From positions 1 through 22,589 of IMG/VR virus record IMGVR_UViG_3300042505_001852: DNA of 22,589 nucleotides; one strand, given 5' to 3'. The notes under the pieces were generated by a model. That model did no database searches and was not told the DNA's origin. It saw nothing but the letters and a program-made list of their open reading frames with translations. This stretch comes from a virus. The stretch's first letter is position 1, and each line of letters begins with the position of its first letter. A program made the translations under genes and the position numbers. Below are positions 1 to 22,589 of the stretch, piece after piece.

Positions 1-26
1 TAGACTTCAAGAAATACTAAAAGACT

Positions 27-845: not shown

Positions 846-1098
846 TGATCCCCAATATAAACAGTGGAGAAAACAAGTAAAAACAAGAGATAAATACTCT
901 TGTATGTGGCCTCATTGTTCTAGTAAAAATAAACTACATGCTCATCATATTAATAAGTGGGCCGATTTCCCCGGCCTAAGATATCACATTCAAAATGGTA
1001 TTACTCTTTGTAAAACCCACCATGACATGATTAAAAATAATGAAGAAAATTACGCCCCTTTCTTTTTGAAACTAATCCTTAACTCTGCACAACCATGA
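829..1098 (+). CDS. HNH endonuclease
   Basis: This is a small (89 residues, or 88 from the second ATG at 832) and apparently intact HNH nuclease. The zinc-binding set C25, C30, C61 and H64 frames a beta-beta-alpha-metal core with H39-H40, N56 and H65 (LHAHHI, then NGITLCKTHH). Compact HNH proteins next to terminase genes are established partners of packaging in HK97-like phages, where they are needed for specific DNA cleavage by the terminase. That role is likely here from position. It overlaps the upstream gene by 17 bases and its stop overlaps the ATG of the next gene at 1095, so it is probably translated by coupling. A free-standing homing endonuclease is the alternative, but its place in an overlapping operon argues for a packaging function. 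Confidence 0.85.
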   Translation: MMRNYNDPQYKQWRKQVKTRDKYSCMWPHCSSKNKLHAHHINKWADFPGLRYHIQNGITLCKTHHDMIKNNEENYAPFFLKLILNSAQP

Positions 1099-1580
1099 AC
1101 TATAAAACTGATCCTTTTACTATTATTGTTGATACTAGAGAACAAACTCCTTGGGAATTTGGCTTTCATACTACTAGTAAAAGAAAACTAGATACAGGAG
1201 ACTATAGCATAGAAGGATTAGAAAGTTTATTTACTATAGAGCGTAAAAAAAGTGTTAGTGAAATTGCTACTAATATAACAGAAAATAGATTTAAAGATGT
1301 ATTAAAGCGCATGAGTGAAATTCCTCATAGTTTTATGATTATGGAATTTAATATTGAAGATATATATACTTTTCCTGTGGGTAGTGATATTCCTAAAAAG
1401 ATGTGGGATAAGCTTAGAATTAGTGGTAATTATATAATGAAACATTTAGTAGAAATTCAACTCAATTATAATATTCATGTTTTATTTTGTGATAATCCAG
1501 AGTCGGCAGAAAGAACAGCAGTTAGCATAATGAAAAGAATATATGAAAAATACGGGCCTAAAGACAATAACACAATTTGA
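1095..1580 (+). CDS. ERCC4-type (XPF-like) nuclease
   Basis: The 161-residue protein has the core of the ERCC4 nuclease domain, a relative of XPF/Mus81 that cuts branched or structured DNA. Visible motifs are VDTREQTPW (D13, R15, E16), GDYS (G35-D36) and IERKK (E49-R50-K51), matching the GDx(n)ERK catalytic signature. The acidic residue usual after ERKxxx is Ser here, with Glu one place later (KSVSE), as in some phage homologues by recollection. There is no helicase or helix-hairpin-helix partner domain, so it is a stand-alone nuclease. It starts inside the stop of the HNH gene (ATGA, 1095-1098) and overlaps the large terminase by 38 bases. Its place between terminase subunits suggests it trims branched replicative DNA before packaging. 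That role is inference; a recombination nuclease parked in the late region is possible. Confidence 0.82.
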   Translation: MNYKTDPFTIIVDTREQTPWEFGFHTTSKRKLDTGDYSIEGLESLFTIERKKSVSEIATNITENRFKDVLKRMSEIPHSFMIMEFNIEDIYTFPVGSDIPKKMWDKLRISGNYIMKHLVEIQLNYNIHVLFCDNPESAERTAVSIMKRIYEKYGPKDNNTI

Positions 1581-3579: not shown

Positions 3580-3630
3580 TTGTGTATTAAAACTTAATAC
3601 TATTAGTAAACACATTACAATATCATTATT

Positions 3631-5796
3631 ATGCCAAGAAAAAAATATCCCAAGAGCGAAGCAATAGAGAGTGCTAATATCTTACCTGAAAATGCTTATG
3701 TTACATGGGACGAAGCCGATTTACAGAGTAAACAAAGTGCTCTTAATGAATCTAGCAAAAGCTTAGAAGAATACGGTTTATTTACAAATAAGGCTACAGC
3801 AGCTAATAGTCGATTTCGTAGCTTTATAAATCTAGACGGTCAAATGTCTGGTCGTCCAGGTTTAACCAGAACAGACTATGACTATTTTAGACCAGACGAA
3901 GCTATTCCAACAGAAATTAAGGCTATCTTTTCGGTAGCAGATCAAATATATAATCGTGTCGGTTTAGTAAAAAATGTTATTGATCTTATGGGTGATTTTG
4001 CTAGTCAGGGTATACGACTTGTTCATCCAAATAAAAGAATAGAAAGATTTTATAGAAATTGGTTTGAAAAGGTTAGGGGCGAAGAACGCAGCGAAAGATT
4101 TCTTAATAATCTATATCGTGTTGGTAATGTTGTAATAAATAGACAAACAGCAAAAATTAGTTTAAAAGTTGCAGACAGCTTATACAAAGCTACAGCTAGT
4201 CCGGATCTGGTTATTAATTCTATAGATGGTAATGTAGAAAAAAGAGAAATTCCTTGGACATATACTTTTATAGATCCCAGATGTGTTGATGTTATGGGAG
4301 ATTCTTTATCTTCTTTTGTACAGAATAAAACATACGCTATAACTTTACCAGCTAGTTTACGTAAACTTATTAATGCTCCTAAAAACGATGCTGAAAAAGC
4401 CATTGTTGATCAACTGCCATCAGCGATCATAGAAGCCGCTAAGGCTAAAAAAGCATATTTACTAAATCCAGACAAAACTTTTGTTTACCACTATAAAAAA
4501 GATGACTGGAAAACATGGGCATTTCCTATGATCTATAGTATTATGGACGATATTGGTATTGTAGAAAAATTAAAATTAGCAGATCTTGCCGCTCTTGATG
4601 GTGCAATTAGTAATATTAGAATTTTTAAATTAGGAAATTTAGAACATAAAATTGCTCCAACCCAAGCCGCCGCCAGTAAATTGAGTCAAATACTACAAGC
4701 CAATGTCGGTGGCGGCACAATGGACTTAGTTTGGGGTCCAGATATAGAGCTTATTGAAAGCAAAACCAATGTTCATCAATTTTTAGGAGAGGCTAAGTAT
4801 GCTCCTCATTTAAATAGTATTTATGCTGGCTTAGGAATTCCACCAACACTAACTGGCACATTTGGTGCTGCTGGTACTACCAATAATTTCATAAGTCTCA
4901 AAACACTAACACAAAGACTACAGTATGGACGTAAAGTTTTAATGATGTTTTGGAAACAAGAAATTGCTATGGTTCAAAAGGCCATGGGTTTTAGATTACC
5001 AGCTAAAATAGAATTCGACAGGATGGATCTTAGCAATGAAGACGCAGAAAAAGCCCTACTTATTCAACTAGCTGATCGTAATATCGTCAGTGATGAATTA
5101 GTACAAAGAGTATTTGGTTTTGATCCAGATACAGAAAAGAGTAGATTAAATAGAGAAGATAAAGCTAGAAATGCTGACAGAATGGTTCAAAAAGCTGGCC
5201 CATTCTTTGATGCTAATTATGAAAATACTCTAAAAAAGATGTGTTTACAATTAGGTATTGCTACTCCAAGTCAAGTAGGTTTAACTTTGGATCCTAAAAA
5301 ACGTGGCGAAATGACAGCACTAGAAATGAAGAGTCAAACAACTATACCTAGTAGTTCTTTACCAGGACAACCACAACAAGGTAGACCCAAGAATAGTACA
5401 GATACCAAAAAGAGAAAAACAAAAACTTTTAGTCCGCAAACAGGAGCATCTTTACAACTGTGGGCTATACAAGCTCAAGATAAAATCAACGAAATAATGA
5501 ATCCTTATTTGTTAGAATTTTATAGTAAGAAAAATATGAGAAGTTTATCTAGCGTAGAATATGACGAAGCAGAAATTACGAAAACTAAAATCTTGTTTAG
5601 TTTAGAACCTCAGTCGGCAGTTACAGCTGATATAGTTTTATCAAAACTCAATACTTTAAATAGTATTGATATTTTAAACACAATTAATCTATACAATAAA
5701 TTAACAAAAAATATTTACTCAGAACTTAATAGACCACTTACCGCAGAAGAAATCAAGTATACTAAAAGTTATTTTTATCAAATGGTGTATGGCTAA
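3631..5796 (+). CDS. Portal protein
   Basis: The 721-residue product sits directly after TerL and has the size and composition of a portal, the ring at one head vertex through which DNA enters and leaves. The segment around residues 398-408 (GLGIPPTLTGT) matches the conserved loop of many portals. The following helical region (about 425-520) fits the stem and clip. Residues about 570-601 are rich in P, Q, S, T and K and probably disordered, followed by a roughly 120-residue C-terminal helical extension that many portals lack. No good ribosome-binding site precedes the ATG, and the next Met is at about residue 72, so this start is kept. A 51-base gap separates it from TerL and contains a small AT-rich inverted repeat (3584-3600). 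Confidence 0.88.
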   Translation: MPRKKYPKSEAIESANILPENAYVTWDEADLQSKQSALNESSKSLEEYGLFTNKATAANSRFRSFINLDGQMSGRPGLTRTDYDYFRPDEAIPTEIKAIFSVADQIYNRVGLVKNVIDLMGDFASQGIRLVHPNKRIERFYRNWFEKVRGEERSERFLNNLYRVGNVVINRQTAKISLKVADSLYKATASPDLVINSIDGNVEKREIPWTYTFIDPRCVDVMGDSLSSFVQNKTYAITLPASLRKLINAPKNDAEKAIVDQLPSAIIEAAKAKKAYLLNPDKTFVYHYKKDDWKTWAFPMIYSIMDDIGIVEKLKLADLAALDGAISNIRIFKLGNLEHKIAPTQAAASKLSQILQANVGGGTMDLVWGPDIELIESKTNVHQFLGEAKYAPHLNSIYAGLGIPPTLTGTFGAAGTTNNFISLKTLTQRLQYGRKVLMMFWKQEIAMVQKAMGFRLPAKIEFDRMDLSNEDAEKALLIQLADRNIVSDELVQRVFGFDPDTEKSRLNREDKARNADRMVQKAGPFFDANYENTLKKMCLQLGIATPSQVGLTLDPKKRGEMTALEMKSQTTIPSSSLPGQPQQGRPKNSTDTKKRKTKTFSPQTGASLQLWAIQAQDKINEIMNPYLLEFYSKKNMRSLSSVEYDEAEITKTKILFSLEPQSAVTADIVLSKLNTLNSIDILNTINLYNKLTKNIYSELNRPLTAEEIKYTKSYFYQMVYG

Positions 5797-5816
5797 TATA
5801 ATACAGGAGTATAATA

Positions 5817-7280
5817 ATGCATATTTATAAAGCCGAAAAAGACGCCGAACTAACTGAACTCCTATCTGCTAAATCTTCCATAGTATATGCTTCTTTAGCC
5901 GAAAAAAGTGAACAACCACAAATAACTAAAGCTAGTATTGAGAATAAATCTTTTGCTGGTATTGAAGATTCTGATCTTTATTATACTCAATCAATACTAG
6001 TAACAACATCATGGAATAAAAATGATGATATTTTTGATCCTAGAGAGGTTTGGGTAGCAAAATCAACACCCACACATAAACCTACAAACTTAGAACATAA
6101 TGAAAATTTAATTGTTGGTCATATAACATCAAATTGGCCCATAGATGAAAATGGTCAAATTATAAATGAAAATACTGAGTATTCAGATTTACCTGAAAAA
6201 TTTCATATTTTAACAGGATCTGTAATATATACAGGATATACTGAACCAGAACTTAAAGAAAGAGCAGTATCTCTAATCAGGGAAATAGAGGGTGGTAGTA
6301 AATATGTTAGTATGGAGTGTTTCTTTAAAGGTTTTGATTATGGTTTAATTAATAAAACAACAGGTAAGTATAATATATTACCACGCAATGAAGAAACAGC
6401 ATTTTTAACACAGCATTTAAGAGCATATGGTGGTCTTGGAGAACATCAAAACTATAAGATAGGTAGAGTTTTAAGACAAATAACTTTCTCTGGTAAGGGT
6501 TTTGTAAATAAACCAGCTAATCCAGAAAGTATTATTTTTACAAAAGAAGAATTATACCTAAACAAAGAATTAGCAGAATATAATATAATTTTAGAAAAAA
6601 ATAACGATTTTTCAGAAGAAGGTGTATTTTCAAATCAAGCCAACTTAAAGGAGACAATTATGAGTGTTGAAACAGAAAATACTACAGTAGTCGCAGAATC
6701 AGAAGTTTTAGAAACTGTACAAACTGTAGTAGAACCAACTGTTGAAACTGATCAACAAGTTGAAGCGGCCAAAAAGATGGAAGAAGAGATGACCAAAAAA
6801 GAAGAAGAAATGAAAAAAATGAAGGCCGCTCTAGAAGCTATTCAGAATGAACTTTCAAGTACCAACGAGGTACTTGCTGCTTACAAATCTAAAGAAGAAG
6901 AAATGATGAAGAAAGAAAAGAAAATGAAAAGAATGGCTTCTTTAGTAGAAAGCGGTATTGATCAAAACACAGCTGAAAGTTCAATTGAAAAATTTGACAG
7001 CATTGATGATGAATTATTCAGCGTTATAGCTTCATTAATCGCCTCTAAACAAACAACAAAGGCTTCAGAAGATGAAGATGAAGAGGATGATTCTGAAGAA
7101 ATGAAAACTGCTCCAAAGGCTTCTGTGGTAGATGCCTCGGTGCTCGAAACAGCCGAAGTAGAAGAAGCTGTTAGTCTTAGTGTCGGAAGCGACGAAGATT
7201 CACAAGTTCAAAATACCAGAGCTGCTTTAGTTGACTTTGTTTGTACTAGACTAGGTAAAAAACTTAATAAGGGAGAGTAA
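5817..7280 (+). CDS. Prohead protease fused to capsid scaffold
   Basis: The 487-residue protein has two parts. Residues about 50-245 resemble the prohead serine protease of the phage assemblin/gp21 type (peptidase U9-like): a candidate catalytic His in NLEHNENLIVGHI (H94; H102 is also near) and a candidate Ser in SKYVSMECFF (S165). Residues 282-487 look like a scaffold: a charged coiled coil at about 315-374 (repeated E, K and M), an acidic stretch at 418-428, and a basic helical tail that would contact the capsid protein. The protease would cleave the scaffold, itself and possibly capsid N-termini before expansion. The start has a strong CAGGAG site. An internal Met282 with its own ribosome-binding site predicts a separate scaffold product. 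Catalytic residues are assigned by motif resemblance only. Confidence 0.85.
   Translation: MHIYKAEKDAELTELLSAKSSIVYASLAEKSEQPQITKASIENKSFAGIEDSDLYYTQSILVTTSWNKNDDIFDPREVWVAKSTPTHKPTNLEHNENLIVGHITSNWPIDENGQIINENTEYSDLPEKFHILTGSVIYTGYTEPELKERAVSLIREIEGGSKYVSMECFFKGFDYGLINKTTGKYNILPRNEETAFLTQHLRAYGGLGEHQNYKIGRVLRQITFSGKGFVNKPANPESIIFTKEELYLNKELAEYNIILEKNNDFSEEGVFSNQANLKETIMSVETENTTVVAESEVLETVQTVVEPTVETDQQVEAAKKMEEEMTKKEEEMKKMKAALEAIQNELSSTNEVLAAYKSKEEEMMKKEKKMKRMASLVESGIDQNTAESSIEKFDSIDDELFSVIASLIASKQTTKASEDEDEEDDSEEMKTAPKASVVDASVLETAEVEEAVSLSVGSDEDSQVQNTRAALVDFVCTRLGKKLNKGE
6647..6653 (+). promoter_or_regulatory. Internal ribosome-binding site for nested scaffold
   Basis: AAAGGAG lies six bases before the in-frame ATG at 6660, inside the protease-scaffold gene. 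It is one of the best Shine-Dalgarno matches in the window and falls exactly at the junction of the protease and scaffold parts, so it is unlikely to be chance. Confidence 0.75.
6660..7280 (+). CDS. Nested in-frame capsid scaffold protein
   Basis: An in-frame ATG at codon 282 of the protease-scaffold gene, preceded by AAAGGAG at ideal spacing, would yield a 206-residue protein made only of the scaffold part. It contains the coiled coil (its residues about 34-93), the acidic stretch (about 137-147) and the basic C-terminal tail. This is the arrangement of lambda C/Nu3 and several other phages, where the free scaffold is made in excess over the protease fusion and both share the capsid-binding C-terminus. 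Two products therefore share one stop at 7280. The prediction rests on the ribosome-binding site, the reading frame and the domain boundary agreeing; expression has not been seen. Confidence 0.72.
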   Translation: MSVETENTTVVAESEVLETVQTVVEPTVETDQQVEAAKKMEEEMTKKEEEMKKMKAALEAIQNELSSTNEVLAAYKSKEEEMMKKEKKMKRMASLVESGIDQNTAESSIEKFDSIDDELFSVIASLIASKQTTKASEDEDEEDDSEEMKTAPKASVVDASVLETAEVEEAVSLSVGSDEDSQVQNTRAALVDFVCTRLGKKLNKGE

Positions 7281-7282
7281 AA

Positions 7283-7741
7283 ATGGCTTTAAAATCAGAT
7301 CGTATTGAAGCTTACACAGATATTTCTTACTTCTGCAATGATACAACCGCTGAACGTGGTGGTGTTGTTGTTCATAGTACTGGTGGTAGCGGCGTAGCAA
7401 TGGACGACTCAAGTGCTGTTGTAACATATTCCGCTAGTCAATCTGGCACCAAGCCAGCCGGCCTATTGCTTAATGATGTTGTTAATCTTGACTTAACAAG
7501 ACAACACATCAACTGGCACAAGGACGAAGTACAAACTGGTAGTAAGGTAACCTTACTACGTCAAGGTCAAGTAACAACTAATATGGTTGTTTCTGGCGTT
7601 GATCCAACAGTTGGTGCTGATGCTTACTACGGTGCAAATGGTAAACTAACTACCGTCAGCACTAACAGTGTTAAGGTAGGTCGTTTTATGGGCGTTAAAG
7701 ATGCTGATGGTTACGTAAAAGTAGACATTAATATAACATGA
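7283..7741 (+). CDS. Probable capsid decoration (cement) protein
   Basis: The 152-residue, Gly/Val/Thr-rich, beta-type protein lies between scaffold and major capsid genes, the usual place for head decoration or stabilisation proteins. Its pattern (GGVVVHSTG near the N-terminus, then KPAGLLLNDVVNLD, then KVTLLRQGQVTT, ending GRFMGVKDADGYVKVDI) resembles small capsid-cement proteins of the DUF2190 kind, where a short beta barrel coats the shell. It starts two bases after the scaffold stop, with its GGGAG site inside that gene's end. Arg codons are mostly CGT, as in the other presumed high-copy virion genes, supporting abundant expression. The exact family is not certain; a minor head protein is the alternative. 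Confidence 0.68.
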   Translation: MALKSDRIEAYTDISYFCNDTTAERGGVVVHSTGGSGVAMDDSSAVVTYSASQSGTKPAGLLLNDVVNLDLTRQHINWHKDEVQTGSKVTLLRQGQVTTNMVVSGVDPTVGADAYYGANGKLTTVSTNSVKVGRFMGVKDADGYVKVDINIT

Positions 7742-7742
7742 T

Positions 7743-7749
7743 AAGGGAG
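7743..7749 (+). promoter_or_regulatory. Ribosome-binding site fixing the capsid start
   Basis: AAGGGAG ends six bases before ATG 7756. It favours this start over the upstream in-frame ATG at 7738, which overlaps the preceding stop and would add only six residues (MIREKN). Confidence 0.8.
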
Positions 7750-7755
7750 AAAAAC

Positions 7756-8778
7756 ATGGCCAATAGAAAATTTGAAGCAACTCCAGAACTAACAGATCTT
7801 CTTGTTAAGTCTGGCTCGTTACACAAAGAGGAAGCTTTAGCAGCAAATCATGAATTTGCCAAAGCTTTAGAACTTCCTCTTCGTCAAGGTGTGCTTAGTG
7901 GCAATATTCTAGATAACATTTTTGAGCCAATCCAACTTGCTCAAAGTGCTACTCCAGAATTTCCTCTAGACTTCCTTGCTCCTGGTACAGAAAAAGACTT
8001 TGTGGCCTATACCATTCCAAATCATGGTTATATTCCACAAAAGCATGTTGAGGGCGATTATGTCATGGTTCCAACCTACGACATTGGCGCTAGTATCGAT
8101 TATCTTCTAAAGTATGCCCGCGATGCCCGTTGGGACGTTGTTGGTCGTGCTATGGAAGTTCTCGAAGCTCAATTTGTAAAAAAGATGAATGATGACGGTT
8201 GGCACACACTATTAGCTGCTGGTGTTGATCGCAACATCGTAGTTTATGATAGTGATGCTAATCCAGGTCTTTTCAGTAAGAGACTAGTATCTCTCATGAA
8301 GACTGTTATGCGTAGAAATGGTGGTGGTAACAGTGCTAGTAATAACCGTGGTATGCTAACAGATCTTTATGTTAGTCCAGAAGCCATGGAAGATATTCGC
8401 AACTGGGGTCTTGATCAAATCGACGAAGTAACTCGTCGTGAGATCTATACCGCTGCTGACGGTACTGTTAATCGCGTTTTTGGTGTTAACCTCCATGATC
8501 GTGATGAACTTGGTGAAGGTCAACAATATCAACTATTCTACAGTAACGTTCTTGGTGGTACTCTACCACAGAACTACTCTGGTAGTGATGATAAGGTTGA
8601 GCTTGTTGTTGGTCTTGATCTACGCAAGAGAGACAGTTTTATTATGCCAGTTCGTCAAGAAGTTCAAATCTTCGAAGACGATACTCTTCATCGTCAGAAG
8701 AGAGCCGGTTTTTATGGCTGGGCAGAACAAGGTTTTGCTGTACTCGATAATCGTAGAGTACTCCTTGGCGCTCTCTAA
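7756..8778 (+). CDS. Major capsid protein (HK97 fold)
   Basis: The 340-residue protein forms the icosahedral shell. It has the order expected of HK97-type capsid proteins: a helical N-terminal arm (about 1-60), a long spine-helix region rich in acidic residues and Arg (about 110-155, with DYLLKYARDARWDVVG), a beta-rich A-domain containing LTDLYVSPEAMEDIRNWGLD, and a closing segment with KRAGFYGWAEQGFAVLDN, typical of this fold's end. Length is in the normal range. The chosen ATG has an AAGGGAG site. Arg codons are mostly CGT/CGC, unlike the AGA-rich genes around it, as expected for the most abundant virion protein. An intrinsic terminator follows 28 bases after the stop. No obvious long cleaved N-terminal domain is present, so the protease's main target is probably the scaffold. 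Confidence 0.9.
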   Translation: MANRKFEATPELTDLLVKSGSLHKEEALAANHEFAKALELPLRQGVLSGNILDNIFEPIQLAQSATPEFPLDFLAPGTEKDFVAYTIPNHGYIPQKHVEGDYVMVPTYDIGASIDYLLKYARDARWDVVGRAMEVLEAQFVKKMNDDGWHTLLAAGVDRNIVVYDSDANPGLFSKRLVSLMKTVMRRNGGGNSASNNRGMLTDLYVSPEAMEDIRNWGLDQIDEVTRREIYTAADGTVNRVFGVNLHDRDELGEGQQYQLFYSNVLGGTLPQNYSGSDDKVELVVGLDLRKRDSFIMPVRQEVQIFEDDTLHRQKRAGFYGWAEQGFAVLDNRRVLLGAL

Positions 8779-8806
8779 TATTAAGCTCATAATATCCTAT
8801 AAAGAA

Positions 8807-8836: not shown

Positions 8837-8880
8837 AGGTGTATTAGAATATAGAAGAAGTATTTATTTAATAATTTAAG

Positions 8881-8892: not shown

Positions 8893-9294
8893 TCTTCAAA
8901 AAAGTACGATTTTTCTATCGAACAAGGATCTTCTTTTAGATTATCTTTAACTTATAAAGATAGTAATAATGCTATTATTGATTTAACTGGTTATTGTGCC
9001 AGATTAATATTAACTACTAATAAAAATGAGACTAAAACCTTTACTACTTTAAATAATGATTATAGTGAATATAAATTTACTATCGACGGCCCTAATGGCG
9101 TAATAACACTATTATTACCAGCAACTACAACTAATAATTTTGATTTTAAATTGGCTAAATATGATTTAGAGATTCAAAGTAATGATGATCTTTATATTGG
9201 TGGTGGTAAAAATACATATAGAATATTATACGGATTAATTAGTATAGTTCCACGATATTCACAAAATGAACAAATTTTGAATTGTAGCCCATGA
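8890..9294 (+). CDS. Small Ig-like structural protein, fibre-linked
   Basis: The 134-residue protein is all-beta by pattern. It opens with YDFSIEQGSSFRLSLTY and then has IDLTGYCARLIL (about 30-41). This pair of motifs marks a recurrent immunoglobulin-like phage domain, placed beside baseplate or fibre genes in many phages and often in an upper-baseplate or fibre-attachment protein. Its stop overlaps the ATG of the giant fibre gene (ATGA, 9291-9294), so the two are probably made by coupled translation and act together, for example as the fibre's anchor to the virion. The start has GGG in GGGCCAAAATATG. The attachment role is inference from position; the fold is recognised by motif only. Confidence 0.6.
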   Translation: MSSKKYDFSIEQGSSFRLSLTYKDSNNAIIDLTGYCARLILTTNKNETKTFTTLNNDYSEYKFTIDGPNGVITLLLPATTTNNFDFKLAKYDLEIQSNDDLYIGGGKNTYRILYGLISIVPRYSQNEQILNCSP

Positions 9295-12200
9295 CAAATA
9301 ATATAAATGTTCAAATAATTGAACCGCCGCTAAATAATCTGATCATAGAAACTCAAGTAGGTTCTGAGCCTATTAATGTGAGTGTGGTTTCTTATAGTGG
9401 AACCAATATTAGTATCATTCACGATCTACCAGTATTACCATCGAATATTAATGATAATATAGCTAGTTTATTAGTAGCAGGTAGTGGCATATCTTTAAAC
9501 TATAATTCTCAGGTTCCTTCTTTAATTATTTCAAGTAGCGGTGGAGCTACTTTATCAACCGAACAAGTACAAGATATTGTCGGATCTTTTATCAGCGGCG
9601 TATCGTATATATCTGTAAATTATGATGACAATAATAATATATTATATATATCTGCTACTGGTTTGCAGCCTAGTGGTAATTATGCATTAGCTAATCACAA
9701 CCATACCTCTAATCATATAACAGACTTTAATAGTAGTGTCAGTGGTCTGCTACCAGTCAAAAATATCAGTTCTGGTAGTGGAATAAATGTAACTAATAAT
9801 AGTGGTAATTTTGTTATTGCTGTTACCGGAACTTTTGGATTAACCAGCGAAGAAGTTGATGATAGGGTAGGCAATCTTCTAGTTGGTGGATCAAATATAG
9901 TATTAAATTACAACGATTTTGCTAATCAGCTTACTATCAGTACTAGCGGACTACAACCTAGCGGAAATTATAGTGTGGTTGGACACACTCATTCTACTAA
10001 CGATATTACAAATTTTAATAGTGAAGTAAATAGTTTAGTTAGCGGAATCTATGCTCCACTAAATAGTCCTAATTTTTCTGGTATTCCAACAGTACCAACA
10101 GCAAGCAGCGGCACTAATAGCACTCAAGCGGCTAGTACAGCTTTTGTTCGCAATGAAATTAGCAATCTTGTTAATTCTGCTCCGAGTACACTAGATACCT
10201 TAAATGAATTAGCCTCTGCTCTTGGAAATGACCCTAACTTCGCTACAACAATAGCTAGTGGATTAGCAAATAAAGCCCCGCTAGTTCATACTCATTCTAG
10301 TAGTGATATAACAGATTTCGCTATTTCTGTAAGCGGATTGTTACCTGTTAAAAATATTAGTGCAGGATCGTATATTAATGTTTCACAATCTGGTACAAAT
10401 TTTATAGTTTCTGCTACTGGATTACAACCGAGTGGAAACTATAGCATTGAAGGTCATACTCACGATAGATTAACCAATGGCGATAAAGAAGCTGTGCTTG
10501 ATAGCAACGGTTCTTTAACATTCCCAAGCGGAAGTATCCTAAGTGAAACAAATAATACACTATCTATAGCTCCTCCAACAGCAGCTTCTGGGCAAAGCTT
10601 AGTAATTCGCCCAACCGTAGCTCTTTGGACAATCAATTCTAGCAATTATATTGAATATGGTAGCCCTATCACAATTTCAGTTACTCTAAATAGCTGGGCT
10701 TATTTTGGAACAGTAAACTATACAATCTCTGGCGCTGGAGTTACTCCACAATCATTAGGTCGAGCATTAAATGGTAAATTAACTTTCGTAAGTACATCTG
10801 CTCCAGATACAGAAACTATTACTTGGACTATCCCGGCTAATAGCAATATCTCTGAATTTACTCTAACACTAACAAGCGTTGATGGAACATTATCAACCGA
10901 TCCACAGACCCAAAATGATCCAGAATTATATTACAATTTTGAATATAATGGTATGCCAACTGGTCAATTTATTACTGTGACTAATAATGGAGTTTCTAGT
11001 TCAGAACATAGTCATGTTCATCTTGTAGCAGGGGATCCAACAACTGTTGATATATACTTAGGTGATGATGATCAATATGTTAAAATTGAAAAAGATGGTG
11101 GAGATGTTATTGTTGGCACAGACTCAAATAATAATCACTGGATTTTTGATACAAGCGGTAATTTAAGAACCCCTACAAATAGTATAATATCTAAGGGCTA
11201 TCCAGGGCTGACTCAGGACGGATCTAGTTGGTTTGTAGCACCTTCTGGATCATTAGGTGGCCTTGCTAGTACGGACGGCCAACAGTATATACAGATTGGT
11301 GACAATAGTGAAATTTATATTGGTTTGGGTTGGCCCAACAATGCTGTTGAATGGATATTTAATAGAAACGGTAGTTTAACATTACCCAGTGGATTAATTT
11401 TTGTAGACAATACTATTCAAACGACCGCTTGGTCTGGAGCCGTATCAATCAATGATATTACTGATTTTGCTAGCGGAGTTAGTGGTTTACTTCCAACCGT
11501 TAGTGGAAGTGGTTATGCTGTAACGTCTTTTAATAATAATATTTATTCTATTAGTGTAACCGGTTTACAACCTAGTGGCAACTATAGTTTAGATGGTCAC
11601 AATCATATTATAGCAGATGTGAGTGGCTTACAAACCGCTTTGGACAACAAACAGCCTAGCGGAATATATGCCAGTGGAATTCACTACCATGTTTCTGCTG
11701 ATATTAGTGATTTTACTAGTAGTGTAAGCGGCCTTCTTCCGGTTATAGCAAATAGCGGCGATAATAGAATTCTCACCAGCACAGGAAGCACAGTTGGAGT
11801 AAACGCTGAAAGCAACCTAACGTTTGATGGAAATCTATTAAGCGTTAGTGGTAATCTAGTTGCTGTTAGTGGCACTTATAATCAATTAATTTTTAATACA
11901 TCTCTTCCCGATCCAGATTTATCTCAAGGTCAATTACAGTGGAATAGTAGTGAGGGTACTCTTGATTTAGGATTCACAGATACATACTCTCAACATATGG
12001 GTGAAGAGTTACATTACAGAGTAAGAAATAATACGACCTCAACTCTAACCAAAGGAACCGCAGTATATGCTAGCGGCTTAACTCCCGGCGGCAATAATAG
12101 GATAGAAGTAGCTCCCTTTACAGCTGATGGTAGTGTCCGAGAAGTAAGATTCATGGGGCTGGTTACAGAGAATATATCTAATGGTGTTAATGGATATACC

Positions 12201-13061
12201 ACACAGTTTGGATATATTAGAGGAATTGATACCAGGGGTGATGCAGCGTCTAATGGATATGCTGGAAAACTTTGGGATGCTGGAGAACCTAGCTGGAGCG
12301 AAGGAGATATTCTTTATGCTCACCCAATAGTTGCCGGAAAACTAACCAAGGTCGAACCAAAACATAGTATTAGTGTTGCGATTATATTAAATCGCCATCA
12401 AAACCAAGGCAAGATATTCGTAAGACCCACAAGTTATGGTCATCTAGATGATAATCATGACGTTAGTGTGAGCGGAGCTACAAATGGTCAATTCTTACAG
12501 TATAATTCGTCTACAGATTATTGGGTTCCAAGTAGTAGCGGTAATTTTACTACTTTAAATATTAATGGAACGGGCGTTAGTGTTAATGGTCATACTCATA
12601 CATCTTCTGATATCACGGATTTTAATAGTAGTGTTAGCGGCCTTCTGCCTGTTACAAATATAGTTGGCGGAACTAATATTAGTGTTGTTCCTAGCGGATC
12701 ATCTTTCACGGTAAGCGTCAGCGGTAGCTTAGGACTAACTACAGAAGAGGTTGATGATAGAGTTAGTAGTTTATTAGTGGCTGGAACGGGAATTAGTTTA
12801 GACTATAGCGATAGTAGTAATACTTTAACTATTAATACTAGTGGACTTCAACCTAGCGGGAATTATAGCGTAACAGGACACACCCACACATCTTCGCAAA
12901 TTACAGATTTTAATAGTAGTGTTAGTGGCTTACTACCGGTAACCAATCTGACTTCCGGAAGTGGAATATCGATATCTTCTTCATCTGGAAACTTTACAGT
13001 TAATGCAATAGATAATATTATTAATAGTAGTAATTTATATTTATGGTCAAGTTTTCGTTAA
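9291..13061 (+). CDS. Mosaic tail fibre / host-recognition protein
   Basis: The 1256-residue fibre is built of repeats. Eight HxH motifs occur at about residues 136, 232, 333, 389, 770, 798, 1101 and 1197, most as GLQPSGNYSxxGHTH followed by DITDFxSSVSGLLP; a related HSHVH is at 573-577. Residues 256-329 carry the widespread fibre repeat with STLDTLNELASALGNDPNF. Residues about 436-545 look like a beta-sandwich insertion. About 570-625 is a module known from memory in aquatic phage fibres (HLVAGDPTTVDIYLGDDDQY), repeated loosely to about 715 and ending QTTAW. About 905-1050 is another recurrent module (KGTAVYASG, then GYIRGIDTRGDA). The protein is low in Cys and rich in S, G, N and T, as expected for an elongated trimer. 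No intramolecular-chaperone domain is evident at the C-terminus, so a receptor tip may be supplied by the next genes. Confidence 0.85.
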   Translation: MTNNINVQIIEPPLNNLIIETQVGSEPINVSVVSYSGTNISIIHDLPVLPSNINDNIASLLVAGSGISLNYNSQVPSLIISSSGGATLSTEQVQDIVGSFISGVSYISVNYDDNNNILYISATGLQPSGNYALANHNHTSNHITDFNSSVSGLLPVKNISSGSGINVTNNSGNFVIAVTGTFGLTSEEVDDRVGNLLVGGSNIVLNYNDFANQLTISTSGLQPSGNYSVVGHTHSTNDITNFNSEVNSLVSGIYAPLNSPNFSGIPTVPTASSGTNSTQAASTAFVRNEISNLVNSAPSTLDTLNELASALGNDPNFATTIASGLANKAPLVHTHSSSDITDFAISVSGLLPVKNISAGSYINVSQSGTNFIVSATGLQPSGNYSIEGHTHDRLTNGDKEAVLDSNGSLTFPSGSILSETNNTLSIAPPTAASGQSLVIRPTVALWTINSSNYIEYGSPITISVTLNSWAYFGTVNYTISGAGVTPQSLGRALNGKLTFVSTSAPDTETITWTIPANSNISEFTLTLTSVDGTLSTDPQTQNDPELYYNFEYNGMPTGQFITVTNNGVSSSEHSHVHLVAGDPTTVDIYLGDDDQYVKIEKDGGDVIVGTDSNNNHWIFDTSGNLRTPTNSIISKGYPGLTQDGSSWFVAPSGSLGGLASTDGQQYIQIGDNSEIYIGLGWPNNAVEWIFNRNGSLTLPSGLIFVDNTIQTTAWSGAVSINDITDFASGVSGLLPTVSGSGYAVTSFNNNIYSISVTGLQPSGNYSLDGHNHIIADVSGLQTALDNKQPSGIYASGIHYHVSADISDFTSSVSGLLPVIANSGDNRILTSTGSTVGVNAESNLTFDGNLLSVSGNLVAVSGTYNQLIFNTSLPDPDLSQGQLQWNSSEGTLDLGFTDTYSQHMGEELHYRVRNNTTSTLTKGTAVYASGLTPGGNNRIEVAPFTADGSVREVRFMGLVTENISNGVNGYTTQFGYIRGIDTRGDAASNGYAGKLWDAGEPSWSEGDILYAHPIVAGKLTKVEPKHSISVAIILNRHQNQGKIFVRPTSYGHLDDNHDVSVSGATNGQFLQYNSSTDYWVPSSSGNFTTLNINGTGVSVNGHTHTSSDITDFNSSVSGLLPVTNIVGGTNISVVPSGSSFTVSVSGSLGLTTEEVDDRVSSLLVAGTGISLDYSDSSNTLTINTSGLQPSGNYSVTGHTHTSSQITDFNSSVSGLLPVTNLTSGSGISISSSSGNFTVNAIDNIINSSNLYLWSSFR
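9696..9992 (+). repeat. Fibre module, N-terminal copy
   Basis: Residues 136-234 of the fibre, from one HxH motif to the next, align without gaps to residues 1101-1199. Shared landmarks are ITDFNSSVSGLLPV, GLTxEEVDDRV, LLVxG and TSGLQPSGNYSV. The DNA copies differ mostly at synonymous positions. Confidence 0.85.
10056..10277 (+). repeat. Phage_fiber_2-like repeat in fibre gene
   Basis: Residues 256-329 match the common side-tail-fibre repeat: LNSPNFSGIPTVPTASSGTN, then QAASTAFVRNEI, then LDTLNELASALGNDPNFATT. Such units shuffle between unrelated phages by recombination; here there is a single copy. Confidence 0.75.
12591..12887 (+). repeat. Fibre module, C-terminal copy
   Basis: Residues 1101-1199 of the fibre are the second 99-residue copy of the module at 9696-9992, with the same length and no gaps, starting and ending on HTH. 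A half-copy (residues about 87-138) lies at the protein's beginning. Confidence 0.85.
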
Positions 13062-13076
13062 CAAAAGGAAAATACT

Positions 13077-13466
13077 ATGGCAACTAGTCCATCTTTCGCA
13101 GTAACTCCGCGTATCGGTTCGGCATCTGTAGCGACCGCCGATTCGTCATATACTTCTCCTACAAATTTTGCTACTATATTGACGGGTGCTAGTACTGGCA
13201 CAAGAATTGCAGAGGTGATTTGCAAAATTGCGATTACATCTACCTCTACAGCAGCTGTTGTGCGGCTGTTTTTGCATGATGGTACAAGCTATTTCTTGCT
13301 AGACGAAATTGTGCTGGCTTCGGCTGTGGCTTCTACGTCAGTGGCTTCAACGCGAGTATCAGCACTTTACGCCAACCTTATTCTGCCAAATGCATCTTGG
13401 TCGCTACGAGCAACAACATCCGTGTCTCAAGCTACATACGTTACCGCTCTAGGAGCAGATCTGTGA
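13077..13466 (+). CDS. Small beta-sandwich virion protein of GC-rich cassette
   Basis: The 129-residue protein, rich in A, S, T and V, begins SPSFAVTPRIGSASVATADS and has VVRLFLHDGTSYFLLDEI near its middle and a C-terminal YVTALGADL. This pattern matches, from memory, a recurrent small structural protein found beside tail fibres in many phages and prophages; its function is not established. The ATG is preceded by AAAGGA at good spacing, 15 bases after the fibre stop. Base composition and Arg codons (CGG, CGA, CGT) differ sharply from the AT-rich genes upstream and downstream. Its stop overlaps the GTG of the next gene. A host-contact or fibre-decoration role is inferred from position. Confidence 0.65.
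   Translation: MATSPSFAVTPRIGSASVATADSSYTSPTNFATILTGASTGTRIAEVICKIAITSTSTAAVVRLFLHDGTSYFLLDEIVLASAVASTSVASTRVSALYANLILPNASWSLRATTSVSQATYVTALGADL
13451..13455 (+). promoter_or_regulatory. Ribosome-binding site for a GTG start
   Basis: AGGAG lies seven bases before GTG 13463, whose last bases overlap the upstream stop (GTGA). It fixes the start of the next gene at 13463; the longer frame opening at TTG 13397 lies inside the previous gene and has no comparable site. Confidence 0.8.
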
Positions 13467-14320
13467 ACTACGGTATTATAAGTCAGGGTTATGCATGTTC
13501 ATCTATGCCGCTTGGTTTACTTGGCAATGCATCGCCGGTGCCGATGCCTGGCGACCCGTTCGCCTATGATGCTGACGCGGCCGAGTATCTGCGGCGAGTC
13601 GAGGCTGCGGACAGTCAGCCACTTGAACATCATGTGCGTGTTGCGATTAATACATTTGTCACATCTTTAAAGGGTGATAGTATATGGTACGCTATGCGAG
13701 CTTGTTGTGTGATGATGGGCGCACGAACGCTGGCCGGGGCATTAACTCCGCTTATCGGTACGGCACCAACCAATGTAAATTTCGTAAGCGGCGACTACAA
13801 TCGTCGCACAGGCTTGTTAGGTAACGGTACAACTAAGAGCTTGAATAGTAATCGAGCGCAAAATGCTGATCCACAAAACGATTTTCATATGAGTGTATAC
13901 ATCACTACATCGGCGACAAATACTGGTGGGTTTCCGATCTACATTGGAAACTACAATTCAACTGGTGAAACTCAACTCGGTTTATCTAGTGCCACAGATT
14001 TACTAGTGCGAAATAGAAGTGCAGCCGCAGAGTCTAGCGTCGGTCAAGCCGCTACTACTGGATTGCTTGGATTTTCTCGAACTCAAGCAAACTGGTTTTC
14101 GCTGTTTGCGGGGGGTCGCCTGCGAACGTTTGCTCGTGCCTCGCAAGTTCCTAACGCCGGTGTGAGTCTGGTTTTCGCTGGACTCAATGTTGGCACTGGA
14201 GCAACAGGATTGCGTTCCGCTTCCAGACTTTGTTGGTACTCAATCGGTGCGTCTATTGATTTACCATTACTCAGACAACGACTAGATCGACTTGTTGCTG
14301 ATTTGAGGATAGCAGTATGA
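13463..14320 (+). CDS. Fibre-associated lectin-like virion protein
   Basis: From the GTG start the product is 285 residues. A helical N-terminal part (about 35-85, with AAEYLRRVEAADSQPLE and SIWYAMRACCVMMGAR) is followed by a conserved core, TLAGALTPLIGTAPTNVNF then SGDYNRRTGLLGNGTTKSL (about 89-127) and NRAQNADPQNDFHMSVYITT. From memory this is a module seen in many cyanophage and other phage structural proteins, with beta-rich content like a concanavalin-type sugar-binding sandwich, so host-surface binding is plausible. A basic, Leu/Arg-rich tail (LPLLRQRLDRLVADLR) closes it. It is coupled to both neighbours (GTGA before, ATGA after). The 13561-13620 stretch is 40 of 60 G+C by hand count. 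The lectin fold is inference; the family resemblance is moderately sure. Confidence 0.6.
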   Translation: MNYGIISQGYACSSMPLGLLGNASPVPMPGDPFAYDADAAEYLRRVEAADSQPLEHHVRVAINTFVTSLKGDSIWYAMRACCVMMGARTLAGALTPLIGTAPTNVNFVSGDYNRRTGLLGNGTTKSLNSNRAQNADPQNDFHMSVYITTSATNTGGFPIYIGNYNSTGETQLGLSSATDLLVRNRSAAAESSVGQAATTGLLGFSRTQANWFSLFAGGRLRTFARASQVPNAGVSLVFAGLNVGTGATGLRSASRLCWYSIGASIDLPLLRQRLDRLVADLRIAV

Positions 14321-14652
14321 CACTAGCTGATTTATCATTACCAATCTCTTACGAAGATGCACAACAGTATGCTCTCTTGTTCACCCCGGCTCTTGCCGCG
14401 AGACTTGCAGAACTTCATGCGATTCATGGCAGTCAATTTTGCGTACCGGTCCCTCGCATATTGACTGATGGACGACTCATGTTGTGCGCTGACCTACTTA
14501 CCGAAGTGATGCCTGGAGGACTACTAGCGAAAATGTGGGCCGCAGCCGACAAGTCAGTTCTGCTTTCCAGTGTACAGGTTATTCCTTGGAACGAGGCAGT
14601 AGCGATGCTGCCTCAAGATGAAGAGCCTCTAGATCAGGCTTTGAGTGGATAA
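14317..14652 (+). CDS. Hypothetical protein ending the GC-rich cassette
   Basis: The family of this 111-residue product is not recognised with certainty. It is mostly helical by composition, with YEDAQQYALLFTPALAARL (about 12-30), a central ILTDGRLMLCADLLTEV, and an acidic end (PQDEEPLDQ). It has no signal peptide or membrane segment. Its ATG overlaps the upstream stop (ATGA), with GAGGA seven bases before the start, so it is translated with the lectin-like gene and is probably its partner, for example an assembly chaperone or cap. Small proteins with a DGR-x-L-x-x-DLLT core sit in the same place in some aquatic phages by recollection. Composition matches the cassette, not the downstream neck genes. 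Confidence 0.55.
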   Translation: MTLADLSLPISYEDAQQYALLFTPALAARLAELHAIHGSQFCVPVPRILTDGRLMLCADLLTEVMPGGLLAKMWAAADKSVLLSSVQVIPWNEAVAMLPQDEEPLDQALSG

Positions 14653-14683
14653 TAGTGTATATATTAATATTAACTTATAGAAA

Positions 14684-19825: not shown

Positions 19826-20683
19826 ATGAAAACTAAAACTTTTAGTATCACAGTAGAGGGTCAGACCAGAGAATTCGTTGTAAGATCACCATCTGTTCAA
19901 GATCAAAAAGAAGCTAGTAAAATTTATAATCAAGAATTTAGCGACGCTATCAAAGCTAAGGCTGTTGTTAGGGCCAAAATTGATGATTTATTAAAAGAAC
20001 AGGGTTTGTGGGATGATACTAAACAACTAAAATTGGGCGAATTACAGAATAAACTATTAGATAGTGAAAGAAAACTGGCCAAGGGTGGTATTCCATTATC
20101 AGAAGCTAGACAAATAGCGTTAGATATGAAAAAGGTTAGAGATGATATTAGAGATCTAATTTCTGTACGAACAGCACTAGATAATCATACAGCAGAAGGC
20201 CAGGCTGATAATGCTAGGTTTAATTATCTTGTTTCAGCTTGCACGGTGTATAAAGATAGTAATAATAAGTATTTTATTAATCTAGAAGACTATTTAAATA
20301 AGTCAACAGATGAGGTTGCTATAAAGGCAGCTCAAGCTTTGGCCAATATGATTTATGGTTTAGATAATGATTATGAAAGTGGTTTACCAGAAAACAAGTT
20401 TTTAAAACAATTCAAATTTGTTGATGATAAACTTCGATTAATTAATAAAGAAGGTAAATTGGTTGATAGTGAAGGTAGACTAATTGATGAAAATGGCAGA
20501 TATATCGATAAAGATGGTAACTTTGTTGATAAGTATGGCCATAGAGTAGACGACGCTGGAGAATATGTGGTTGATCATCAACCATTTTTAGATGATAATG
20601 GACAACCTATTGTGGAAGAAAAGGCTAAGGATGAATCAAAACCACCTGTCACAACTAGTGAGAATCCAGCAGTCTCAGGTTGA
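19826..20683 (+). CDS. Putative tail-assembly chaperone with heptapeptide repeats
   Basis: The 285-residue product has three parts. Residues 1-25 form a small beta hairpin (TFSITVEGQTREFVVRSP), like the entry of tail-chaperone or tape-measure-binding proteins. Residues about 26-195 are helical and charged. Residues 206-261 consist of eight seven-residue units of the form (I/V/L)-D-x-x-G-x-(L/Y/F), such as VDSEGRL, IDENGRY, IDKDGNF and VDKYGHR; the seventh (VVDHQPF) is degenerate. The tail (262-285) is polar and Pro/Glu-rich. TGAGGAA precedes the ATG. It immediately precedes the tape measure gene, the usual seat of chaperones that coat the tape measure. A similar repeat tract is recalled from marine phages. 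No slippery sequence for a G/GT-type fusion is obvious in it. The role is inference. Confidence 0.5.
   Translation: MKTKTFSITVEGQTREFVVRSPSVQDQKEASKIYNQEFSDAIKAKAVVRAKIDDLLKEQGLWDDTKQLKLGELQNKLLDSERKLAKGGIPLSEARQIALDMKKVRDDIRDLISVRTALDNHTAEGQADNARFNYLVSACTVYKDSNNKYFINLEDYLNKSTDEVAIKAAQALANMIYGLDNDYESGLPENKFLKQFKFVDDKLRLINKEGKLVDSEGRLIDENGRYIDKDGNFVDKYGHRVDDAGEYVVDHQPFLDDNGQPIVEEKAKDESKPPVTTSENPAVSG
20441..20608 (+). repeat. Eight 21-bp units coding (I/V)DxxGx(L/Y/F)
   Basis: In-frame 21-base units encode the heptapeptide repeat of residues 206-261. The DNA units have diverged in codon choice, so the amino-acid pattern, not the DNA, appears to be what is kept. Confidence 0.85.
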
Positions 20684-20707
20684 TAATTTTTCATTATTGA
20701 TATCCTT

Positions 20708-20750
20708 AATAGTATCCCTATTAGTAGTAGTTGCTAATGGGGATATTATT
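20708..20750 (+). promoter_or_regulatory. Long hairpin before tape measure gene
   Basis: Bases 20708-20724 pair with 20734-20750 over 17 positions (two G-U pairs) around a nine-base loop, with CCC opposite GGG at the core. The hairpin ends four bases before the GTGGAG ribosome-binding site of the tape measure. The following T-stretch is short and broken by A (TATTATTTTAT), so it is a weak terminator, an attenuator or an mRNA-processing/translation element rather than a classical terminator. Confidence 0.7.
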
Positions 20751-20770
20751 TTATGTGGAGTTAAATAAGT

Positions 20771-22589
20771 ATGGCATCGGCCTTTAATCTTACTGCACAA
20801 ATTAACCTTCAAGGTCCAGCCAATCTTAGAACAGTTGTTGCTGATATTAGGCGACAGTTAGGTTCCATAACGGTTGATATTAATCCACAGATCAATGCCG
20901 CTGCTGCTAGAAATGTTGCTAGTTTGTCTAATGATCTTAGGACATTAAATTCTGTATTGAATAATACAGTTACTGCTAGTAGAAGTGCAGCCCAAGCTAT
21001 TAATAATTTGGGAAATGCCATAAATAGTGTTGGTGGTCGTAATATACAACAAAATATGAATGCTGCTACAGCAGCAGCTCAAAACTTGAGTAGAAATATA
21101 ACCTCTGTTGGTCAAAATACTCAAAGAGCAGCAACCCAAATGGAAGAGTTTGGTAGACAAAGTGCTTTAGCTATCCGACGTTTTGCTGCTTTTAGCATAG
21201 TTACTTCTGCTGTATATAGTTTTATTAATGCTGTTTCTAAGGGCGTTGATGAATTTATAAAGTTTGATAAAGAATTTGTTAGACTACAACAGGTTACTGG
21301 TGAAAGCGCCAAAGGATTACAGTCATTAGCTAGTGAAATTAGTAGACTAGCTACCCAGTATGGTGTGGCCTCAAACTCCTTAACTCAAGTCTCTGTAACA
21401 CTAGCACAAGCTGGTCTTACAGCTGGTGATACCAAGAGAGCACTAGAAGCTTTAGCTCAAAGCGCATTGAGTCCATCATTTGACGATATGAATGAAACTG
21501 TCGAAGGTAGTATTGCTCTTATGAGACAGTTTGGTATTAGTGCTACTGATTTGGGTAAAGCATTAGGTTCTGTTAGTGCCGTATCTGCTCAGTTCGCCGT
21601 AGAAGCTAGTGATATTATTACAGCTATTCAGCGTACTGGTGGTGTATTTGCCACAGCTAGTAAGGGTGTTTCACAAGGTTCTGAGGCCCTTAATGAATTT
21701 ATAGCATTATTTACTAGTGTGCGTCAAACTACTCGTGAAAGTGCTGAAACTATCGCTACTGGTTTAAGAACTATTTTTACTAGAATTCAAAGAGGAGATA
21801 CAATAGACGCATTAAAAGAATTTGGTGTTACATTAACAGATCTAGAAGGTAAATTCGTAGGACCGTTTGAAGCTGTGAAAAGACTTAGTATTGGTCTTAA
21901 AAGTTTAGATCCTAGAGATTTAAGATTTTCTGCGATTGTTGAAGAACTAGGTGGTTTTAGACAAATTGGTAAAGTTATTCCTCTTATTCAACAGTTTGCA
22001 GTAGCACAGCAGGCACTTAAAGTTGCTCAACAAGGCCAGGGTATTTTAGCTAAAGACGCCGCTACTGCACAATTAAGTTTAGCAAACCAAATAGCAAAAG
22101 TAAGAGAAGAATTTTTAGCATTAATTAGAAGTATTGGTGAAAGTGATAGTTTTAAGAGTTTTGTTAATTTATCACTACAATTAGCTAGCGCCTTAATAAG
22201 AGTAGCTGATGCTGCAAAAGATGTACTACCAGCTATTGCCGCTATTAGTACCATTAAAGGTATTTCAGCACTAACTCAATTTGGATCTGGATTTGCTAGA
22301 GGATTAACAAGACCACGAGGATTTGCTACGGGTGGATATGTTCCTGGTAGTGGCAATAGAGATACTGTTCCAGCAATGTTAACTCCCGGCGAGTTTGTTA
22401 TTAGAAAAAAGGCTGTAGAAACTATTGGCGTAAACAGACTTCAAAATCTTAATACGGGTGGTGGTGTTCAAAAATTTGCTAGGGGTTCATTTGTTATGCC
22501 AAAAGCTAGGGGCGTAGCTGGAGCAAGGGGTGCTAGAAGCAGATTTAAAGATCTCACAGAAGAAGAGTTAGCACAACTTAGCACAGATG
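20771..22589 (+). CDS. Tape measure protein, 3' truncated by window end
   Basis: The reading frame is open for 606 codons to the edge. The protein sets tail length and is ejected into the cell with the DNA. Residues 40-130 are Ala/Asn/Gln-rich, repetitive and helical. A hydrophobic stretch (about 138-155, RFAAFSIVTSAVYSFI) may be membrane-active. About 175-400 matches the PhageMin_Tail/TP901 core, with LATQYGVASNSLTQVSVTLA, SAETIATGLRTIFTRIQ and LDPRDLRFSAIVEELGGFRQ. Residues 517-553 carry the frequent tape-measure motif FATGGYVPGSGNRDTVPAML followed by TPGEFVIRKKA. The start ATG is preceded by GTGGAG at a long ten-base spacing and by the hairpin at 20708-20750. The C-terminal part lies outside the window. 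Confidence 0.93.
   Translation, partial: MASAFNLTAQINLQGPANLRTVVADIRRQLGSITVDINPQINAAAARNVASLSNDLRTLNSVLNNTVTASRSAAQAINNLGNAINSVGGRNIQQNMNAATAAAQNLSRNITSVGQNTQRAATQMEEFGRQSALAIRRFAAFSIVTSAVYSFINAVSKGVDEFIKFDKEFVRLQQVTGESAKGLQSLASEISRLATQYGVASNSLTQVSVTLAQAGLTAGDTKRALEALAQSALSPSFDDMNETVEGSIALMRQFGISATDLGKALGSVSAVSAQFAVEASDIITAIQRTGGVFATASKGVSQGSEALNEFIALFTSVRQTTRESAETIATGLRTIFTRIQRGDTIDALKEFGVTLTDLEGKFVGPFEAVKRLSIGLKSLDPRDLRFSAIVEELGGFRQIGKVIPLIQQFAVAQQALKVAQQGQGILAKDAATAQLSLANQIAKVREEFLALIRSIGESDSFKSFVNLSLQLASALIRVADAAKDVLPAIAAISTIKGISALTQFGSGFARGLTRPRGFATGGYVPGSGNRDTVPAMLTPGEFVIRKKAVETIGVNRLQNLNTGGGVQKFARGSFVMPKARGVAGARGARSRFKDLTEEELAQLSTD

Follow-up and report, generated by a model that had tools for sequence, protein, structure and literature searches.

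It has long been asked how phages can change the hosts they recognise and still keep a working fibre. In T-even phages (T2, PP01, S16) the gp37 fibre works with a tip adhesin, gp38, and a protein family of unknown function, phrog_17104, has members in the Synechococcus phages KBS-S-2A, S-CBS4, S-CBWM1 and S-SRP02. In the freshwater phage Pam3 the fibre gp24 has TNF-like and Gly-rich tip domains, and its chaperone gp25 embraces the distal fibre with a β-sandwich domain and has in addition a trimerising helical domain (PMC9608196). Receptor-binding protein domains also shuffle across phage taxonomic boundaries (PMC10684548). Here we describe three small genes, A, B and C, that lie behind the tail fibre gene in a linear IMG/VR record (IMGVR_UViG_3300042505_001852); the record, 22,589 bases with tailed-phage head and tail genes, was analysed over its whole length, referred to as the window, and comes from an AT-rich freshwater phage. 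We suggest, with a probability of roughly 0.7, that A-B-C is an exchangeable tail-fibre tip, imported from a pool of GC-rich phages and partly adapted since. The grounds are base composition, synteny in unrelated phages, absence from near relatives and a conserved fibre tag, gene overlap and peptide, together with predicted folds.

Genes A (13077..13466, plus strand, 129 residues), B (13463..14320, plus, 285 residues) and C (14317..14652, plus, 111 residues) have a G+C content of 47-49%, that of the whole window being 35%. The 1576-nucleotide block they form is at 48.4% and the richest block of equal length elsewhere in the window at 41.6%; in a 60-nucleotide scan, the maximum anywhere outside 13077-14652 was 34/60. 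The three hand counts by which a first-pass annotation of this DNA had singled out the block (40/60, 39/60 and 15/60) are exact, as are its GTGA and ATGA gene overlaps, at 13463-13466 for A/B and 14317-14320 for B/C. Both overlap starts are preceded by a Shine-Dalgarno-like AGGAG/GAGGA, and B begins at the GTG that overlaps the stop of A; an automatic prediction that starts at TTG 13397 overextends the gene, given that homologues begin at the overlapping GTG/ATG.

The expected G+C at third codon positions (GC3) was derived for each gene from its own amino acids under the codon usage of the window. GC3 is 0.33, 0.38 and about 0.40 for A, B and C, with expectations of 0.205, 0.219 and 0.237 (z of 3.8, 7.1 and 4.8), and 0.375 for the trio combined, with an expectation of 0.201 (z of 10.8); other clear genes of the window have z from -3.0 to +2.6, a row named 'tail end' (20683-22589, +15.6) having been excluded as a wrongly framed stretch. 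The fibre is native in composition (GC3 0.21, z 1.0). Arginine codons are shifted as the first-pass annotation had claimed, AGR making up 6/28 in the trio and 157/235 in the rest of the window (Fisher p = 5e-6), and the per-codon log-likelihood of donor versus native usage is -0.22, -0.20 and -0.19 for A, B and C, -0.82 for the fibre, and -0.82 and -0.98 for genes behind the trio. An Ala/Arg-rich protein composition, which the same annotation had named as a possible sole cause, does not account for this GC3, which exceeds the amino-acid expectation in all three genes. The same excess, together with a GC3 of no more than 0.27 in the highly expressed major capsid protein (MCP) gene, argues against a trio native to the AT-rich clade whose G+C is held high by protein composition or by selection for expression. 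A native trio would fit the facts that many phages of the AT-rich clade have A, that head genes of that clade often have raised G+C (0.56 in L040, 0.47-0.53 in L055; loci and contigs are given L numbers) and that A genes of some AT-rich phages reach a GC3 of 0.33 (L011), but the relatives described below make it very improbable, and we regard it as mostly refuted already. A crossover inside the window's A, hinted at by the codon profile, is unsupported by identity or GC3 per segment, and a regression of the GC3 of C on flanking G+C was set aside, as it has one AT-rich point.

About 150 loci were collected by searches with the MCP and the gene behind C; they belong to a large group of AT-rich phages whose contigs reach 230 kb. 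In this group the interval between the MCP and gene 14693 holds a variable fibre block or nothing, and in many members the 14693 homologue directly follows the MCP. Presence in all close relatives, which the first-pass annotation had considered incompatible with its proposal, is not what we find: the trio is missing from both L090 and L010. L090 matches the window at 99.16% identity across bases 1-8783 (head genes) and at 95.75% in the fibre from 8899 to 11745, with other tip genes thereafter; its contig ends short of gene 14693. L010, with a backbone 78.8% identical to the window, contains the full interval, with A, B and C all absent. Its blastn alignment resumes at window base 14638, within the last codons of C, and a different gene in L010 has the same ending as C (ALSG, stop), while the homology of C to donor sequences breaks off 5-13 residues before its end. 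The final codons of C and the next bases (14638..14660, plus) are backbone shared with L010, which places the 3' junction just ahead of a late-promoter-like motif. An assembly artefact fusing two phages might be suspected in a metagenomic contig with so abrupt a change in composition, but is hardly credible: the block is flanked on either side by AT-rich fibre and tail genes in their usual order, the fibre tag and the backbone 3' end are intact, and the arrangement recurs in L171, L172 and L204/L206, the last being identical in two samples. Both L090 (11013-12536) and L010 (190-1713) have a 507-residue open reading frame between the MCP and gene 8890 that is absent in the window, a further variable insertion beside the fibre. 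In L318 (IMGVR_UViG_3300008116_000014) the 14693 homologue follows the MCP directly and the A module is found at another place in the contig, so the position of the module varies among genomes.

L166-L170, of 64.7-67.5% G+C, each have a full A-B-C trio downstream of a fibre, with genes that overlap as in the window and a GC3 of 0.64-0.86; these trios are 51-53% (A), 46-58% (B) and 74-77% (C) identical to the window. Neither these nor other GC-rich trio phages gave a hit to the window's MCP or TerL, several of them being short fragments. Profile searches over all loci found 17 distinct contigs with the order A-B-C, 41 in which C accompanies a B-like gene but A is lacking, and 54 in which A has a different gene behind it (hereafter the head). 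Flanking G+C in the GC-rich A-B-C contigs is 0.65-0.69 in 12 of 13 and 0.63 in one; the A/B overlap is present in all A-B-C contigs save those read by weak hits, the B/C overlap in the closest, and C homologues are 58-78% identical in ten loci. The search for the trio in unrelated phages that the first-pass annotation had proposed thus found it in phages of 63-69% G+C, in the same order and with the same overlaps, and with the GC3 anomaly and the absence from L090 and L010 this bears out acquisition from a phage of another base composition. Absence in the nearest relatives, atypical composition and closer kin in unrelated genomes, the marks by which gene transfer is recognised, coincide here. 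As to the host of the GC-rich phages, one contig of a Planctomycetaceae metagenome-assembled genome matched and 293 other genomes of the phylum did not; given this lone match, we claim no host.

Among AT-rich phages C occurs only in the window, L171, L172 and L204, being otherwise found in GC-rich phages, and this distribution also speaks against a native trio. GC3 of A, B and C is 0.54/0.57/0.64 in L171 (MCP 84% identical to that of the window), 0.18/0.62/0.66 in L204 and 0.25/0.20/0.28 in L172 (MCP 88%). The four form a graded series in which L171 and L204 are fresh, the window is intermediate and L172 is fully adapted; the low GC3 of the L172 trio is likewise not what a native trio with G+C held high would show. 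In L204 a native A stands before a foreign B-C, so exchange occurred at the A/B border. Of the proposal that the cassette was recently acquired, acquisition therefore stands, and 'recent' holds only in the relative sense that GC3 in the window lies between L171/L204 (0.54-0.66) and L172 (0.20-0.28). The further claim that the three genes travel as one unit does not hold throughout, in view of L204 and of the 55 of 72 A loci with another head, none of which has C. In the C tree the AT-rich rows are dispersed among GC-rich ones and need 4 changes, at least 2 of them forced by well-supported branches; in the A tree they need ten, at least four of them forced. As far as sequences go, the simplest interpretation is that these genes left a pool of GC-rich phages repeatedly and adapted afterwards.

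An unadapted trio from a donor of about 50% G+C, for example a cyanophage, would also give an intermediate GC3. The family of B is best known from Synechococcus phages, its isolate relatives in phrog_17104 are all cyanophages (most at 49-58% flanking G+C), and A-containing contigs of 55-56% G+C exist (L258, L294, L298). We consider this origin unlikely, as the cyanophage relatives share only residues 28-285 of B, at about 31-47% identity (one short stretch at 64%), and have neither A nor the N-terminal tail by which B would dock to it, while phages of 66-69% G+C contain the full trios nearest to that of the window (B up to 58%, C up to 77%). Partial adaptation of a GC-rich import thus seems to us the better account of the window's GC3 than a donor of middling G+C.

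The arrangement around A is far more widespread than the trio. Connector features were counted at 73 A loci, 72 of them with a readable upstream fibre. The fibre of the window (9291..13061, plus, 1256 residues, of the phage-tail-repeat (PTR) type with PHROG tail fibre and Pfam PTR matches) ends in NIINSSNLYLWSSFR (13014..13058, plus), a tag of the W-x-x-F-R/K type; these 15 residues are identical in the AT-rich L204 and L318, which marks the window's fibre as native. An LYLWSxFR-like tag (e.g. LYLWSNFR) ends 62 of the 72 fibres upstream of A, in phages of 32-69% G+C. The gene after A begins with (M/V)NxG(I/V/L) in 71 of 73 loci and overlaps the stop of A in 72 of 73, by 4 nucleotides in 54 and by 1 in 18. 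The heads themselves are diverse: at 72 loci 28 are Gly-rich, 17 are of the lectin-B type and 27 are other, with Pfam Gly_rich_2 and DUF285 found among them. Fibre and cassette do vary independently among relatives, a point that the first-pass annotation had proposed to test. Two isolates have the same layout: gp56-55-54 of Pseudanabaena phage Pam2 are a fibre, an A homologue (gp55) and a LamG-like head starting VNFG, and gp23-24-25 of Rhodobacter phage RcFrancesLouise are a fibre (DUF2793-like in our reading), an A homologue (gp24) and a Gly-rich gp25. In L011 (6803-8488) and L043 (6492-8489) the heads behind A consist of DUF285 repeats (Mycoplasma-type MFxxAxxFNxxLxxWN). We lean towards the view that phages of 32-69% G+C, Pseudanabaena and Rhodobacter phages included, share a fibre-tip socket of tag, a hitherto undescribed β-sandwich adaptor and docking peptide that takes traded lectin, Gly-rich and repeat heads. 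Judged by sequence, the mobile thing would be a standard connector and the trio one plug-in among many, of a type that appears to recur in dozens of otherwise unrelated phages. We found no published description of such a tag-adaptor-docking-peptide connector in the open literature, which is not proof of its absence.

The AlphaFold2 model of A, built from 48 homologues (pLDDT 89.8), is an eight-strand β-sandwich. A has more than 70 homologues and no sequence match in Pfam, PHROGs or PDB; the structures nearest to its model are those of further uncharacterised proteins from phages (TM 0.77-0.87). Matches with Z of 9-10 to the HFTV1 turret, the KHP40 cement protein (8qpg, 7dou), nucleoplasmins and satellite capsids reflect, on this predicted model, the common β-sandwich, and no structural match proves a role. 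B matches phrog_17104 (E 5.7e-75, profile positions 7-260 of 264, B residues 31-282). In its model (pLDDT 86) residues 1-32 are disordered (VNYGIIS...) and residues 37-284 have a ConA/LamG-like fold, a jelly-roll that superposes on lectin and carbohydrate-binding domains with Z of 14-16 across 156-218 residues, about 16 for domain 4 of the arabinanase AbnA and about 15 for sialidase/CBM40 lectin domains. A lectin family match was sought in Pfam and none was found, so the assignment is by fold, and B may be described as a putative sugar-binding concanavalin-A/LamG-like lectin. Matches of its model to clostridial neurotoxin binding domains represent the same common lectin fold, with no bearing on toxicity. 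Pam2 gp54 (L335:5381-6178), an A-docked lectin, is recorded as 'botulinum neurotoxin type A', a misleading name that looks to have been transferred from the shared fold. The tail of B aligns with other heads behind A, and residues 28-285 with cyanophage proteins that lack A, which indicates that B combines a peptide for docking to A with a lectin of the phrog_17104 family. Exact-peptide patterns from B retrieved no relatives among viral contigs; alignments did.

C belongs to no known family in Pfam, PHROG and further family searches. C stands behind B-type heads in 17 of 17 cases and behind other heads in 0 of 50 loci with room for it, and it would probably help to fold, oligomerise or cap the lectin heads. 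C is also found behind A-less lectin-like heads in L173, L208 and L333 that start with M(P/G)M(S/N)PRxLRPxxx, which in sequence resembles a docking peptide of another, second kind. B-C might instead be a virion decoration or an enzyme trimming surface sugars, and C could have nothing to do with B, acting in lysis or assembly. Hydrolases and accessory domains, too, can have ConA-like folds, A is similar to cement and turret proteins of phages, and C has no family. We consider this quite unlikely, because a tagged fibre in front, a strict docking start and interchangeable heads all fit a fibre tip, and C is tied to lectin heads.

For the tip as an exchangeable import, we infer the order of binding, the contacts, the sugar receptor and the role of C as follows. 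A would bind the short fibre tag (LYLWSSFR) as a small β-sandwich adaptor and hold the disordered N-terminal peptide (M/V)NxG(I/V/L) of whichever gene comes next. Here that gene is B, whose folded lectin part would bind a sugar on the host surface, and the lectin fold and its presumed place at the fibre tip suggest, in line with the first-pass annotation, a function of the trio in host range. C, made with lectin heads only, would serve them. With contacts confined to tag, adaptor and short peptide, heads could be swapped without redesign of the fibre, with one crossover at A/B and the other shortly ahead of the late promoter that follows. GC-rich phages would be the source of B-C and of a good part of A at the least, which would then have partially adapted to the AT-rich genome.

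The promoter in question is a candidate one. In 96 loci of the AT-rich clade (A/G)GGTGTAT has 167 sense-strand copies and 11 on the opposite strand; 54% of copies lie 25-80 nucleotides 5' of an open reading frame start (5.7% for random positions), commonly directly after a terminator hairpin, and in nearly all relatives a copy lies 30-60 nucleotides 5' of the 14693 homologue. We regard the motif as a candidate phage-specific late promoter. The window has copies at 8838-8844, before gene 8890, and at 14654..14660 (plus), the latter a variant, AGTGTAT, marking where the next transcription unit would begin. Between the two, fibre and trio would form a single late unit, within which the A/B and B/C overlaps would balance translation.

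Several points weigh against an imported tip. On its 5' side the foreign stretch of the window has an indistinct boundary, the GC3 of A showing no step by segments, and the nearest relatives of the window's A, 72% identical at best, are both AT- and GC-rich. The trees span 100-130 residues and resolve poorly; AT-rich recipients are few (the window, L171, L204, L172), and the clade of L204, a fragment without MCP or TerL, is unconfirmed. The window's GC3 could mirror a donor of about 50% G+C. Ten of the 72 fibres lack the tag by automatic reading, some probably being wrong-frame picks. Finally, a search for psbA in 16 large relatives found none, so these are not obviously cyanophages; this speaks against a cyanobacterial host, although it is not decisive.

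If A is the adaptor we propose, heads could be found in metagenomes through the gene that overlaps A, and the contact pair would be defined and testable. The locus would present a socket for trading receptor-binding heads among unrelated phages, in which stages of transfer and of adaptation can be seen, and it gives leads to function for phrog_17104 and for A and C, two families that neither Pfam nor PHROG covers.

Compared with gp37/gp38 of T-even phages, the likeness is that many heads behind A are Gly-rich; a conserved adaptor, A, however, stands here between fibre and head, and the head bears a short docking peptide and is folded as a lectin. The trio showed no sequence link to gp37/gp38. 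B, with 10% Gly and its lectin fold, lacks the polyglycine domain of gp38, Gly-rich heads (Gly_rich_2) standing behind A in other phages; gene order and the tag suggest that B would sit at the fibre tip and bind the receptor as gp38 does. Pam3 is likewise a freshwater phage with Gly-rich tips and a β-sandwich at the distal fibre, but its tip domains lie within gp24, whereas here heads are separate genes, and A is a single predicted β-sandwich without the trimerising helical domain of gp25. The folded part of B belongs with the phrog_17104 proteins of cyanophages; these differ in having no A-docking tail and no A nearby, some standing in tandem copies. In contrast to the domain shuffling described for receptor-binding proteins, whole genes would be exchanged here behind a fixed adaptor, and composition orders the steps.
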